From: a virus
Reading direction: 5' to 3' (one strand)
Virus record (IMG/VR): IMGVR_UViG_3300032245_000575
Coordinates: 1-21,775 of that record
DNA length: 21,775 nt
Positions within the stretch are counted from its first letter, which is position 1. Every line of letters starts with the position of its first letter. Below, one piece after another: positions 11,506 to 18,636 of this stretch. A program made the position numbers and the translations under genes. Under the pieces are notes generated by a model that was not told the origin of the DNA, did no database searches, and was given only the letters and a program-made list of their open reading frames with translations.

Positions 11506-13365
11506 TTAGACGAATGTTTTGTTTTGTTCTGCAAGCATCTCGTCAATGTTGACGACAACTCTTCGGCCCATTTCAGCTCTTGACAGGAATGGATTCTTCA
11601 TATGGTGGGTTGCGTACTGACCATAGTTGAGCATCTCTCGTGCTCTGATTTCACAGAACCACAAGGCCATTACTAAGTCTGTCTTACCCTTAGTGGTTGG
11701 AGTCCAGGTAATCAACTGCTCGATTAGAGCCTTGATCATTTCAGATTGGTCACTAGGTAGATGTATTAAGTTATCTCGGTGGTGCTTACCGTCTGACTGC
11801 TTAGTCCCGAATAATGTAGACATAGAAGCAACACCGAAACCTGCGTCCCACTTATTACCACCTGTGTGGTGTTCACGAAGAACAACGCCACGACTTGCAA
11901 GGTGCTGACGAATACCTTCGTCCTGAGTAAGAAATGCCTGGAAAGCGTTCTTCTCAATAATCCATTCAGACGGGCTATAGAGCTGCGTCCAGTTAATAAT
12001 GATGTCGCGGATCTGCTGGGGGCTAGGTCTAGTAATCTTGATTGTGTCCAAGATATAGCGCTTGCTAGTATTGCGATCAATAGCGTAAGCGACTGCAGCT
12101 GTATCTCCCACGATTGCTGGGTCCATACCGCAGATAATGCTAAAGCCTGATAGATCTCTAGGATGGCCTGGGTAGCCAGGTTCTAGTCGGCCTGCTTTAC
12201 GCATACCGTCAATAGAACCCTTGACACATACTGGGTCGAATGCTGCGTTCTCAGAAACATCTTGCTGCTGGTAGACCAGCGCCCAAGTGGATGAGTCCAT
12301 CGCTTGGCGTTCGTTGTAAAGGTTACGGCCAGACCAGCGCGGATAGAGACCGTTCTCGTCTTTATCGCTATCTAGCTGTCCATCAAAGGGCATATCTGAC
12401 TTTGGCCACAGGGTGACCCACTTATCAGGGTCTTCATCTGCTTCCAGAAGTGCTGGCATAGCCAGATATGTCCAAGGTACTAAACCGCCTGGGTAGCGAT
12501 CTTCGGAGCGAAGCTCACGGTATAGATCAACGGAAGCCACACGCGTTCCAATAATAATCAATTTGCCAGTAGGGTTCAAACGAGAACGCACATCTTGGGT
12601 CAGCCAGCGGATCTGCTTCTCAAACTCGTTGGCGTTCTTTAAAGTGACAGCATCGTCTACAATGATCATATCGGCACGCTTACCGTAGATCTGGCCGCCG
12701 ATACCGACGGCTTCAATGTTCGGGTCTTTTTCAGAAGACTCACGAAGCTCATCACCAAAGGTGACACGGGTTGCTGCCCAAGTTGCCGTCTTAGAGTTAA
12801 AACCAACGCCAGCGGCGTAAGCCTGCTGGAGGTCCTCATAGTTCGGATGGGTCAGACGCTGCTTAATAGCGTAAAGGAAGTCTGCCGCAAGCTGCTGTGT
12901 CTGGGATACGATCAGGACACGGAAGTTTGGGTTCTTGGCTACCATCATCGTCACATACTCCACCGTAATGGACATTGACTTGGCGTGGTTTGGCGGGATG
13001 TTGATTAGGATGCGGTTATTGGCCAGACCCTTTTCAAACTTCATATTGGGATGAAGCCAGCTTGGTTCCCTACCCTCAATCACATCTACTAGGTTCTGCT
13101 GATGTGGAAAGACCTTGTGCTTCATATAGCGTTCGCAGAACTCGGCATAGGTCACATCGTGGGCATCGCCAGATGCAAATGACTTGTCCTTCAGACCTAG
13201 CCTTGTACGATCTACTTTGTCAGCAAAGATCTTGTCTGTGCGACGGTAGTACTCGTAAGTCTTCAGGCTTTTACCAGCTGAAGCGCAAGCGGCCTCAACC
13301 GTCATACCTTCTGCTACTGCGCCGAGAATAATTCTCTTGGCTATATCTGCTGAGTTCTCAGCCAC
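11506..13365 (-). CDS. terL: Terminase large subunit with N-terminal helix-turn-helix
   Basis: The ATP-driven packaging motor and nuclease, 619 aa. The ATPase shows a variant Walker A, PPNHAKS (124-130), Walker B MIIVDD (233-238), and a coupling motif IIIGTR (270-275). The RNase H-like nuclease shows acidic residues in the expected order: D415 in CGMDPAIVGD, E471 in WIIEKNAF and D563 in KTDLVMALW. Residues 10-55 (AVAEGMTVEAACASAGKSLKTYEYY) read as an added helix-turn-helix like that of small terminases. The start is GTG at 13365 with AGGAG about 7 bases upstream. It is the first gene of the leftward late operon, after a long structured leader. Confidence 0.93.
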   Translation of the reverse strand: MAENSADIAKRIILGAVAEGMTVEAACASAGKSLKTYEYYRRTDKIFADKVDRTRLGLKDKSFASGDAHDVTYAEFCERYMKHKVFPHQQNLVDVIEGREPSWLHPNMKFEKGLANNRILINIPPNHAKSMSITVEYVTMMVAKNPNFRVLIVSQTQQLAADFLYAIKQRLTHPNYEDLQQAYAAGVGFNSKTATWAATRVTFGDELRESSEKDPNIEAVGIGGQIYGKRADMIIVDDAVTLKNANEFEKQIRWLTQDVRSRLNPTGKLIIIGTRVASVDLYRELRSEDRYPGGLVPWTYLAMPALLEADEDPDKWVTLWPKSDMPFDGQLDSDKDENGLYPRWSGRNLYNERQAMDSSTWALVYQQQDVSENAAFDPVCVKGSIDGMRKAGRLEPGYPGHPRDLSGFSIICGMDPAIVGDTAAVAYAIDRNTSKRYILDTIKITRPSPQQIRDIIINWTQLYSPSEWIIEKNAFQAFLTQDEGIRQHLASRGVVLREHHTGGNKWDAGFGVASMSTLFGTKQSDGKHHRDNLIHLPSDQSEMIKALIEQLITWTPTTKGKTDLVMALWFCEIRAREMLNYGQYATHHMKNPFLSRAEMGRRVVVNIDEMLAEQNKTFV

Positions 13366-13383
13366 TGGTTCTCCTAAAATTAA

Positions 13384-13401
13384 ATGGCGCGGATGGCGCG
13401 G
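13384..13401. repeat. Tandem 9-bp repeat ATGGCGCGG x2
   Basis: ATGGCGCGG occurs twice without spacing, 13384-13392 and 13393-13401, just upstream of the terminase ribosome binding site in the leftward leader. Two GC-rich repeats so close to terL might be a protein binding or packaging site, but this is only positional inference. Confidence 0.6.
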
Positions 13402-13439
13402 AATAGTTCCTTATACTAGGTTGGAGAGTTTCCTAATAC

Positions 13440-13659
13440 TGGAAAAGGTGTTTTCCACAACGAAGCTTTGCTTCGTCTACTGGGATTAAATGATCTACTG
13501 GGAGTAGATAGACCTCTCCCTACTAAAAGTACCGAAGGTACTGTTCGGGCTTAGCGCCCGAAGGAGCCACAGCGAACTGAGGGGTAAGTCTGTACTCGGC
13601 CTAGGGGCCTCGTTAGAGGCCAACCATTCGGGTCGCAAAGCTAGTATTCCCCGCTTTGC
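13440..13659. repeat. Array of seven short perfect hairpins
   Basis: Seven separate perfect stems lie in 220 bases: 13440-13457 (7 bp, loop GGTG), 13460-13476 (7 bp, loop TTT), 13493-13509 (7 bp, loop GGG), 13528-13542 (6 bp, loop GAA), 13544-13562 (7 bp, loop TTAGC), 13606-13621 (6 bp, loop GTTA) and 13635-13659 (7 bp, loop 11). A weaker stem may form at 13577-13599. Stems differ in sequence, so these are not copies of one repeat. They would form the leader of the late mRNA if transcription starts near 13660, or could extrude as single-strand hairpins in DNA. Confidence 0.75.
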
Positions 13660-13665
13660 TCCCCT

Positions 13666-13694
13666 ACTATATATAAGCCGCTAAAAAAAGACCA
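13666..13694 (-). promoter_or_regulatory. Candidate leftward late promoter
   Basis: On the minus strand a -10-like TATAGT (13671-13666, five of six consensus bases) lies 17 bases from TGGTCT (13694-13689), a poor -35 with three of six matches. The site is within TATATATAA, easily melted. It points toward terL, about 300 bases away, and a start near 13659 would place the hairpin array at the 5' end of the transcript. An alternative phage-specific or activator-dependent promoter is equally possible. Confidence 0.25.
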
Positions 13695-13850
13695 TATTGC
13701 GTTTTTGACTCTGTGAATTGGAACACATTTGTATTACAGGGTAAAAGTGCAGGTCAAGCCATATACAGCTTCCTGCCGATCACGGCGTTTGACTTTAGCA
13801 AATATTTTTTTCTGGGGAGTATAGCGGGATGTGCATCAAAAGTTAACAAT

Positions 13851-14012: not shown

Positions 14013-14030
14013 CGACAGCTGCGACAGCTG
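14013..14030. repeat. CGACAGCTG tandem pair
   Basis: CGACAGCTG is present twice back-to-back (14013-14021, 14022-14030) and followed by CGACC. The core CGACAGCT occurs again at 14111-14118, beyond the iterons. The core CAGCTG is palindromic and also forms the middle of the 14218-14229 palindrome, which suggests one protein may bind all these sites. Confidence 0.55.
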
Positions 14031-14034
14031 CGAC

Positions 14035-14099
14035 CTAAGTTACTCAACAGTAAGTTACCGTCAAGTAGGTTACCCATTGGTAAGTTACCCAACGGTAAC
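14035..14099. repeat. Four 15-bp iterons, GTAAGTTACCC-N4, plus a partial fifth
   Basis: Units start exactly every 15 bases at 14035, 14050, 14065 and 14080; a fifth begins at 14095 with only GTAAC. The conserved part is GTAAGTTACCC; the last four bases vary. Variants are CTAAGTTACTC in unit 1, a final G in unit 2 and GTAGGTTACCC in unit 3. Each unit contains GTAA-G-TTAC, a small dyad, so each may bind one dimer. Regular spacing with variable linkers indicates protein binding sites: replication initiator iterons or a multi-site operator. Confidence 0.8.
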
Positions 14100-14208
14100 A
14101 TAGCTGACCCCGACAGCTCTTGAATTGTCGACATATCGACATCAAACCCTGACAGAATTCTCAGTTAAATCTCAGGATATTGTTATCAAACCGTAATGAA
14201 AATGTGCT

Positions 14209-16587: not shown

Positions 16588-16876
16588 GAATAGAAGAATT
16601 GCAAGGGAATATAGTGCAGCTCTCGGATATTCGAGAAGAGAAATTGCGTGCCTTGTCACCCTATGGACCAGTGAAAGCAGGTTTGACCACTTGGCCAAAC
16701 CACGAGACTCCAAAGGACGACCCACTAGTTCAGCTTTTGGAATTGCTCAACTCCTTGGAGAGCGCAGTGGATCACCTGAACTTCAAATCCTTCACGGTCT
16801 ACGATACCTTGGTAAGCGCTATCGAGGGAGTGCGTGTCGCGCTCTACGATTCCATAATAGAAAAGGGTGGTACTGA
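16442..16876 (+). CDS. Secreted lytic transglycosylase / lysozyme-like endolysin
   Basis: This 144-aa protein should cleave peptidoglycan. It starts with an N-terminal hydrophobic signal or anchor (residues 7-22, LVLALLLASGLA). A charged helix follows (35-55). The lysozyme-like part has a putative catalytic Glu78 in LWTSESRFD, the SLT-type motif SAFGIAQLL (97-105), a helix HGLRYLGKRYRGS and the closing ALRFHNRKGWY (134-144), as in actinobacterial transglycosylases. The ATG has GGAGAGGG seven bases upstream and the stop overlaps the methyltransferase ATG as TGATG. It overlaps the 93-aa gene by 146 bases and the 101-aa frame by 293, in other frames. Confidence 0.72.
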   Translation: MKLLGKSGLVLALLLASGLALTHTNLTPRLEVIPQMKERTKATQEEKRENRRIAREYSAALGYSRREIACLVTLWTSESRFDHLAKPRDSKGRPTSSAFGIAQLLGERSGSPELQILHGLRYLGKRYRGSACRALRFHNRKGWY

Positions 16877-16889
16877 TGAAACTTCTTGA
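16584..16889 (+). CDS. Overlapping frame, 101 aa (possible overprinted gene)
   Basis: GTG at 16584 overlaps the preceding stop as GTGA and has AGGAGG six bases upstream, the best start context in the neighbourhood. The frame begins MRIEELQGNIVQLSDIREEK and then predicts an amphipathic helical part (DPLVQLLELLNSLESAVDHL, and then VYDTLVSAIEGVRVALYDSI), without a known domain. Nearly its entire length shares DNA with the transglycosylase catalytic domain in another frame. One of the two may be spurious, but both have good signals. It ends 14 bases into the methyltransferase gene. Confidence 0.45.
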   Translation: MRIEELQGNIVQLSDIREEKLRALSPYGPVKAGLTTWPNHETPKDDPLVQLLELLNSLESAVDHLNFKSFTVYDTLVSAIEGVRVALYDSIIEKGGTDETS

Positions 16890-17547
16890 TTTATATTGCA
16901 AAGCAGGAGGAGCAAGTAAAGGCTACGCTGATGCTGGCTTTGAAGTAACAGGTATAGATATTAAGAAACAAAAGCGTTATCCCTATACCTTTATTCAGGC
17001 TGACGCTTTGGAAATCCTTTCAGATTTAGATTACCTGCGCACCTTTGATGTGATTACAGCTAGTCCACCCTGCCAAACTCATTCACGCACTAAGCATTTA
17101 AGAGATGCACAAGGTGGAACCACTACCAAGATAGACTTAATTCCGCAGACTAGAGCTGCGCTTATCGCTAGTGGCAAACCTTATGTAATAGAAAATGTTC
17201 CAGGCGCACCTCTTATTAATCCAATTCAATTATGTGGATCATCTTTTGGATTAAAGGTACGCAGACATAGACTTTTTGAATCCAACTATGAGATACTAGG
17301 ATCTGTCTGTAAGCACAAGGAACAGGGAAAACCTATTGGCGTTTACGGGGCAATGAACGATACAGCTCAGGGCTTGGATAAAACTACTGGTAAGTATGTC
17401 ATTGGAGGGTCTACCGCCAAGACTGTAGAAGAAGCAAGGCTAGCAATGGGCATTGATTGGATGATTTGGGGAGAGTTAGTAGAGGCAATCCCTCCAGCCT
17501 ACACGCTGCACATAGGGCAGCAGTTAATGAGGTTACTTAATGAGTGA
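16876..17547 (+). CDS. C5-type cytosine DNA methyltransferase (putative)
   Basis: This 223-aa enzyme should transfer a methyl group from S-adenosylmethionine to cytosine in DNA. Motif I is DLYCKAGGASKGYADAGF (5-22), motif IV PPCQ with catalytic Cys66, motif VI ENV (106-108), motif VIII RRHR (129-132), and motif X-like GQQL near the end. The target recognition region is short, making it a compact member. I chose ATG 16876, overlapping the transglycosylase stop as TGATG, rather than GTG 16867. No restriction endonuclease is nearby, so it is probably a solitary protective or regulatory methylase. Confidence 0.85.
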   Translation: MKLLDLYCKAGGASKGYADAGFEVTGIDIKKQKRYPYTFIQADALEILSDLDYLRTFDVITASPPCQTHSRTKHLRDAQGGTTTKIDLIPQTRAALIASGKPYVIENVPGAPLINPIQLCGSSFGLKVRRHRLFESNYEILGSVCKHKEQGKPIGVYGAMNDTAQGLDKTTGKYVIGGSTAKTVEEARLAMGIDWMIWGELVEAIPPAYTLHIGQQLMRLLNE

Positions 17548-18007
17548 AGGATTCTATAAAGGTGATACTTTTAGATCATCAGTTGATGACACTTGGACTA
17601 CGCCTAAAAAGTTCTATGCAAAACTGCACGAAGAGTTTGGCTTTACCCTTGATGCAGCTGCATTAAAAGAATCTGCTCTTTGTGATACATACTTTGGCCC
17701 AGATCATAGTGACCCAAGTATGCGCGATGCCCTGGTTTTGGATTGGTCAGAGTATGCGCCAAGCAAAACAGTATGGCTTAACCCTCCCTATGGTAGATCC
17801 ATTAAGGATTGGGTGGCCAAGGCAGACAGTGAAAGCAAAAGAGGCTTGACAGTAGTATGTTTGGTTCCAGCAAGAACAGATACTAATTGGTGGTGGAATA
17901 GTTGTATTCATCACGAGGTTAGGTTCATTAAAGGTCGCCTTAAGTTTGGTGATGGTTTAAATTCAGCTCCATTTCCAAGTGCAGTTATAGTAATGAGAGG
18001 ACAGTAA
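17540..18007 (+). CDS. Phage DNA N6-adenine methyltransferase (Dam-like, PF05869-type)
   Basis: This 155-aa protein carries the elements of the phage N6-adenine methyltransferase family: DTWTTPKKFYAKLHEEF at the start, FTLDAAA (35-41), catalytic NPPY (81-84) in VWLNPPYGRSI, LVPARTDTNWW (108-118) and the tail VRFIKGRLKFGD with APFPSAVIV. It methylates adenine N6 using S-adenosylmethionine. Length is normal. The ATG lies eight bases before the previous gene's end with GAGG upstream; the stop forms TAATG with the next start. This points to tight co-translation. Confidence 0.92.
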   Translation: MSEGFYKGDTFRSSVDDTWTTPKKFYAKLHEEFGFTLDAAALKESALCDTYFGPDHSDPSMRDALVLDWSEYAPSKTVWLNPPYGRSIKDWVAKADSESKRGLTVVCLVPARTDTNWWWNSCIHHEVRFIKGRLKFGDGLNSAPFPSAVIVMRGQ

Positions 18008-18636
18008 TGCTTATATTCGATTTCTTTTCTGGTACTGGTAGTTCTACGCAAGCGTTCAAAGATGCAGGTCATACTGTTATTACCTTTGAACTAGATGATT
18101 TCTTTGAGGCAACAGAACACGCTAATGTGTTCGACCTAAACGCAACCAATCTCATCGCCAAGTATGGACAGCCAGACTTTGTCTGGGCTAGCCCACCGTG
18201 CACTGCCTTTAGCGTGGCCTCAATGGGCCACCACTGGGGCGGAGGAATACGAGCATATGAACCCAAGACTGAAGCAGCTAGGATAAGCCAAGATTTGGTG
18301 GCTCACACTGTACAGTTAATTAAGGATCTCAACCCTACTAAGGGTTGGTTGATGGAGAACCCTAGAGGTATGCTCCGCAAGCTACCAGTAGTAGCCAACC
18401 TTCCACGCACTACGGTTACCTATTGCCAGTATGGAGATAGCCGTATGAAACCTACAGATTTGTGGGGAGTGGTACCTAACTGGGTCCCTCGTGATATGTG
18501 TAAGAACGGGCAGCCTTGTCACGAAGCTGCACCTCGTGGTGCTAAGACGGGAACTCAAGGTCTAAAGGGAGCGAGAGAAAGATCGCGTGTCCCGCACGCA
18601 TTGGGCGAGGAATTGTTAAAGGCTTTGCTACACTAA
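18007..18636 (+). CDS. C5-type DNA methyltransferase, actinophage type
   Basis: This 209-aa enzyme has motif I DFFSGTGSSTQAFKDAGH (5-22), a PPC motif IV with putative catalytic Cys65 (ASPPCTAFSV) and ENP (117-119) where classical C5 enzymes have ENV. YCQYGDSRMKPTDLWG (139-154) follows, then RSRVPHALG near the end. This is the layout of phage cytosine methyltransferase-like proteins; the specificity is unknown. AGAGGA precedes the ATG and TAATG couples it to the adenine methylase. It differs strongly from the 223-aa enzyme, so recent duplication is unlikely. It is the last gene before the terminator. Confidence 0.85.
   Translation: MLIFDFFSGTGSSTQAFKDAGHTVITFELDDFFEATEHANVFDLNATNLIAKYGQPDFVWASPPCTAFSVASMGHHWGGGIRAYEPKTEAARISQDLVAHTVQLIKDLNPTKGWLMENPRGMLRKLPVVANLPRTTVTYCQYGDSRMKPTDLWGVVPNWVPRDMCKNGQPCHEAAPRGAKTGTQGLKGARERSRVPHALGEELLKALLH

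Follow-up and report, generated by a model that had tools for sequence, protein, structure and literature searches.

A covarying hairpin leader upstream of terL in phages known from metagenomes, and its possible role in expression of the late operon

The window analysed here is a 21,775 nucleotide stretch of viral DNA (positions 1 to 21,775 of IMG/VR record IMGVR_UViG_3300032245_000575). Within it, terL lies on the minus strand from 13365 to 11506 and is preceded by a leader running from approximately 13665 down to 13366. The array of hairpins originally predicted to stand in front of terL does so as its 5' leader: with terL on the minus strand, the array heads terL and the leftward portal and head gene block that follows. 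The features of the region, in window coordinates, are as follows.

13712 to 13727, minus strand: CRP-like palindrome TGTG-N8-CACA, a candidate activator site for the late promoter
13679 to 13708, no strand given: region of the inverted repeat P-1, weak in the window, whereas most relatives have 4-8 bp here and arms that drift
13662 to 13677, minus strand: promoter-like box CTTATATATAGTAGGG with -10-like TATAGT, the putative leader start
13630 to 13664, minus strand: P0/P1, with GGG/CCC closing pairs, tandem G-A mismatches, and then a 7-bp stem
13635 to 13659, minus strand: P1 stem GCAAAGC/GCTTTGC, with an 11-nt loop
13606 to 13621, minus strand: P2, GGCCTC-TAAC-GAGGCC, the upper part of which competes with P3
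13598 to 13609, minus strand: P3, GGCC-CCTA-GGCC, covarying
13579 to 13587, minus strand: unpaired TTACCCCTC, part of the P5/P6 module, conserved in alignments of terL-collected loci with P5/P6
13562 to 13578, minus strand: P5, an A-X..X'-T and GC-TGTG-GC helix, covarying
13544 to 13562, minus strand: P6, TTCGGGC-GCTAA-GCCCGAA, covarying
13528 to 13542, minus strand: P7, AGTACC-TTC-GGTACT, a variable hairpin followed by TTTT
13493 to 13509, 13460 to 13476, and 13440 to 13457, minus strand: accessory hairpins P8, P9, and P10, with CCAGTA-like repeats between them
11506 to 13365, minus strand: terL, with a GTG start and AGGAGA upstream (PHROG 38, E = 7.5e-64), the first late gene in the window

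The array at 13440-13659 contains, as originally predicted, seven perfect stems of 6-7 bp, with loops of 4, 3, 3, 3, 5, 4, and 11 bases, and is the densest cluster of such stems in the window. Sequences of equal composition do not yield as many: in dinucleotide shuffles of the region the mean is 0.47 and the maximum 4, with none of 2000 reaching seven. Folded as RNA, 13366-13700 is more stable than its shuffled versions, the minus (terL-sense) strand (z = -4.4) more so than the plus strand (z = -2.0), while folding of the minus strand as DNA gives z = -4.3.

Three of these stems (P1, P2, and P6) belong to the conserved core, together with two helices that the original prediction had missed, P3 and P5, the latter because its paired runs are short. 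P1, P3, P5, and P6 covary; for P2, covariation of its own is not shown, and this stem overlaps bases of the better-supported P3 hairpin. P8, P9, and P10 are accessory, with similar stems in few relatives; hairpins of the accessory type with CACC or TACC loops occur in 13 of 171 leaders, and in the place of P7 some relatives have AGCACC, GGCACC, or AGGCC stems. The relatives do not keep the C(GAA)G triloop.

Relatives were collected by scanning IMG/VR with TerL, which gave 80 loci of 84-92% identity, and further loci were added with two DNA patterns derived from the leader. The core motif is found in 238 locus records; in 230 of these it is followed by terL in the same orientation, and 7 are cut off. 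Since some contigs account for two or more of these records, there are fewer distinct leaders, with 192 unique core segments and 97 distinct alignment rows. The remaining record, L096, was rejected as a chance pattern match, with neither leader nor terL around it. All 16 of the near-full-length records have one leader match each. One of the pattern searches required TTACCCCTC, so that its conservation can be judged from the terL-collected loci only, where leaders with P5 and P6 carry TTACCCCTC or a one-base variant. The P5/P6 module is missing from one leader subtype, and the P2 sequence is kept within the subtype of the window, other subtypes having a longer hairpin instead.

Searches of the window and 12 further loci against Rfam 15 gave no match to the leader at gathering score. 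In bacterial genomes the exact pattern has two matches, neither with terL and in number about what chance allows, and no description of the element was found in the literature, within which coverage of subscription journals was limited. The closest cultivated relatives by TerL are phages infecting Streptomyces, which suggests that the host of the phage in the window is actinobacterial. The records carry no habitat, and a freshwater label for the carrier phages would be drawn from the kind of phage.

The original prediction had proposed selection for structure itself, and compensatory base changes in related phages were indeed found in number: the arms drift and the complementarity stays. In P1, the pair 13658-13636 is T-A in 63, C-G in 45, A-T in 9, and G-C in 3 leaders, with no mismatches, counted in the 120 leaders that fit a search expression anchored on the flanking motifs, without structural alignment or covariance model (72 leaders fall outside the expression). 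Double changes are seen in all 7 pairs of this stem. P0 is weaker than P1, with 90% of cells paired. For the second pair of P3 there are 55 G-C, 23 C-G, 12 T-A, and 1 A-T, with 5 non-standard, and the anchored counts for the P5 pair 13577-13563 are 72 C-G, 70 G-C, and 3 T-A, with one mismatch. P6 alternates in the relatives between CGGGC/GCCCG and CGGGAGT/ACTCCCG. In a mutual-information ranking that ignores structure, helix pairs take the top five places, with P1 at the top, P5 second, and P3 third.

A covariance model (R1) was built from 14 hand-chosen seed sequences and has 99 matches in 100 sources, one per source. In the resulting alignment of 97 distinct rows, 95.5% of cells are paired and double changes are present in 18 of the 23 pairs. 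Double-change cells number 261, compared to 69.7 in shuffles, and the score for covariation is 0.273, where shuffles give 0.079 and slid controls at most 0.047. Such an alignment leans towards structure by construction, and it is for this reason that the anchored counts matter. Parsimony, on a tree drawn from the same short alignment, gives approximately 68 compensatory events from one Watson-Crick pair to another, with 8 events involving G-U and 7 involving A-C. An alignment of the mixed sequences with plain MAFFT, followed by RNAalifold, was also tried and gave a poor consensus with one double-change pair, because the variable loops of P1 shift the alignment.

The loops of the conserved stems are of 4, 4, 5, and approximately 11 nt, and there are no UNCG or GNRA hairpins with at least 5 bp in 171 leaders. 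Conservation extends to unpaired stretches, these being TTACCCCTC, the CCTA loop, and CGA after P1 and P3. Taken from the aligned leaders, the conserved fold is very probably real. That some 68 paired mutations have kept it while the letters drifted means that the fold must do a job.

Upstream of the core the order is the CRP-like palindrome, the P-1 inverted repeat with its drifting arms, the box CTTATATATAGTAGGG, and then the core itself. The window has no second copy of the box when up to 3 mismatches are allowed, and the relatives keep it. The palindrome is the sole exact match in the window, yet 36 of 100 shuffles also contain one; TGTG-N8-CACA is present at the equivalent place in the relatives and in the Streptomyces phages. 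A P-1 stem is present in 135 of 150 unique relatives, with a longer version in the Streptomyces phages. Relatives frequently have a plus-strand T run after P-1, which could there terminate rightward transcription.

Among the relatives, terL is between 185 and 896 nt away from the box, while the core stays beside the box. In many of the longer cases another small ORF starts approximately 180-310 nt past the box, or a tRNA gene comes first; the usual gene after the core is terL, and sometimes it is a tRNA gene or other small gene. That the core is fixed to the box while the gene downstream varies indicates a promoter-linked operon leader and not a control specific to terL. In five contigs a tRNA-Phe(gaa) or tRNA-Arg(acg) gene, in the orientation of terL, separates terL from the core (L005:3911-3984, which is one with L118, L090:183-256, L108:9168-9241, L166:6847-6920, and L171:477-550), from which it is argued that the leader is transcribed. 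In L142, L157, L180, L012, L141, L053, L080, L073, L095, L145, L192, L122, and L047, the late operon opens, in the gap between leader and terL, with differing small ORFs that are often lysine-rich.

It is well supported that a fold of the terL-sense strand has been kept by compensatory change, in single copy and fixed to a promoter-like box. The role with the most support among those suggested for the array is that of a structured late-mRNA leader, given the promoter-like box and the same-strand tRNA or alternative first genes downstream. From sequence comparison, the leader is probably a cis-acting RNA of the late operon, in an antitermination or a protective form. The host RNA polymerase, perhaps aided by a CRP-like activator, would start at or near the putative box CTTATATATAGTAGGG; the nascent RNA would fold into P1, P3, P5, P6, and the accessory hairpins; and the fold would act in cis, allowing transcription to reach the end of the long late operon and the mRNA to survive. 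By analogy, the most likely form, although a tentative one, is that of a put-like RNA that may make RNA polymerase resistant to pausing and termination. The other form, somewhat more doubtful, would be a passive leader in which the 5' hairpin and the dense structure shield untranslated mRNA from RNases or Rho without any contact with the polymerase. Passive protection would suit the position of P1, which begins a few bases from the putative start, the accessory hairpins, whose sequences are dissimilar and whose number varies, and the subtype that lacks the P5/P6 module. The put-like form is slightly favoured over it because of the conserved unpaired stretches, which suggest a specific partner. 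Terminator-like sites are in no clear excess in the late block (15 found, 12.7 expected).

Through the zinc-binding domain of RNA polymerase, the put RNA of phage HK022 suppresses both pausing and termination. The putL and putR sites of this phage form hairpins in the nascent RNA, after a phage promoter that heads a long operon; put RNAs are approximately 70 nt, have two stem-loops, and belong to early operons, with two occurrences (PMC9378689). The leader would resemble them, if the promoter predicted from sequence is indeed one, in having hairpins after a phage promoter and a long operon behind, and differs in its core of approximately 120 nt with several helices, in heading a late operon, and in being present once per genome. 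As it does not have the two-stem-loop architecture of approximately 70 nt, the leader is not classed as a put RNA. Stabilisers of the ompA mRNA type are 5'-terminal stem-loops, where a stable hairpin stands in an untranslated leader. The stable hairpin at or near the putative 5' end of the untranslated leader is similarly placed, but there are in addition unpaired conserved motifs and several covarying helices.

The TerL of Streptomyces Beephvirinae phages is 44-45% identical to that of the window, and in their terL leaders (Immanuel3, Manuel, Abafar, and others) there is likewise a CRP-like site, an inverted repeat, a TATATATAATGGGG-like box, hairpins, and then terL. Their hairpins are perfectly paired, with arms that vary in sequence and covary. 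However, the hairpins differ from those of the window and covariance model R1 has no match there, which suggests that these phages share the layout and not demonstrably the same RNA.

The leader is always on the sense strand of terL. Non-standard cells include G-A (21) and A-G (9), with no T-C or C-T, which fits folding of the terL-sense strand, and in 30 of 40 leaders the core has a lower folding energy as sense strand than as its complement (p = 0.0002), with z-scores alike. Asymmetry of wobble pairs is uninformative as a test of strand, G-U and A-C events being about equal. G-U pairs make up 10 of 1964 cells (0.5%) in the leader, against 85 of 720 (11.8%) in a control of Mycobacteriaceae SRP RNA, and G-U and compensatory events number 8 and 68 in the leader, as opposed to 17 and 8 in SRP RNA (Fisher p approximately 4e-39 on cells, which are non-independent, and approximately 7e-8 on inferred events). 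As SRP RNA is slower-evolving and has longer helices than the leader, this contrast is suggestive and falls short of decisive. The scarcity of G-U is odd for a folded RNA, and would suggest that a role at the level of DNA is possible. In P-1 the pairing is also kept despite drift, though it lies upstream of the box and outside any transcript from it, and if TATAGT is the -10 then part of P0 would lie upstream of the start, a further reason to retain a DNA reading. It is nonetheless unlikely that this is a late-operon element whose fold is selected as DNA pairing, besides or instead of the transcript, in which terL-sense-strand hairpins that tolerate G-A and not G-U would link replication or RNA polymerase to the late promoter. 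If it were so, the element would form a new class among phages, and the coupling would be of a type not described before.

The hairpins might, with a somewhat better but still low chance, act as DNA in another way, with the terL-sense strand single-stranded or extruded, for example as a site of replication or primase loading between divergent gene blocks. In favour of this are the strict Watson-Crick pairing almost without G-U, the inverted repeat P-1 with its compensatory changes ahead of the putative start, and the DnaA-box-like TTATCCACA repeats a few hundred bases upstream in some relatives; however, every relative ties the element to the promoter-like box and to the strand of the late genes, the tRNA genes within the leader imply transcription, the DNA triloops are not conserved, and a GC-skew turning point clearly centred on the element was not found. 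The TTATCCACA repeats are seen at the upstream ends of contigs L148, L141, L048, and L017. That a small RNA acting in trans is freed from the leader by processing is improbable: maturation of the tRNA would free the leader where one sits between the core and terL, and the content after the core is exchangeable, but in most relatives there is neither a tRNA nor an evident cut site, and after the core there is a single, weak terminator candidate on the sense strand.

Translational or riboswitch-like control of terL is very unlikely: in the window the leader immediately precedes the ribosome-binding site of terL, but a number of relatives place a tRNA or other genes ahead of terL. Likewise very improbable is a site for packaging or a genome end beside terminase, which had also been suggested and was not demonstrated. 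Contig ends are in excess 0-500 nt upstream of the core, but they are spread over approximately 500 nt with no common position, other near-full-length contigs pass through the region, and repeats and strain variation account for the breaks equally well. As for the suggested N4-type promoters, in which a virion RNA polymerase would use the hairpins, the likeness is that the stems are short and that three in the window have 3-nt loops. The conserved stems have no triloops, there is a single array per genome and not a set of repeated promoters, and the window has no detectable polymerase gene; the largest protein, of 1548 aa, matches no Pfam family or solved structure and has no detectable RNA polymerase homology. 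As the record is partial, a polymerase gene may lie beyond it. There is next to no chance that this reading is correct.

The leader, probably a cis-acting RNA, is a strongly supported structured element, as yet without a name, and is shared by a large phage group known from metagenomes. Since cultivated Streptomyces phages have the same promoter-plus-hairpin layout, its function is testable now. Should it act on RNA polymerase, RNA-based antitermination would be extended beyond the lambdoid put sites, and should it act as DNA, it would represent an unusual architecture for a late promoter or origin. The many compensatory changes set against nearly zero G-U are a testable puzzle in themselves.

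Other features were seen in these sequences. On the relative phage contig L209, approximately 1 kb from the leader, there is an Rfam Hammerhead_II match at 1719-1778 on the minus strand (39.2 bits, E = 7e-5), which is above the gathering score. In the window, three more short perfect hairpins and GGTAAGTTACC-like repeats are present at 14016-14141, before the first rightward gene, and three adjacent DNA methyltransferase genes, two of the C5-cytosine type and one of the Dam type, lie on the plus strand at 16867-18636.
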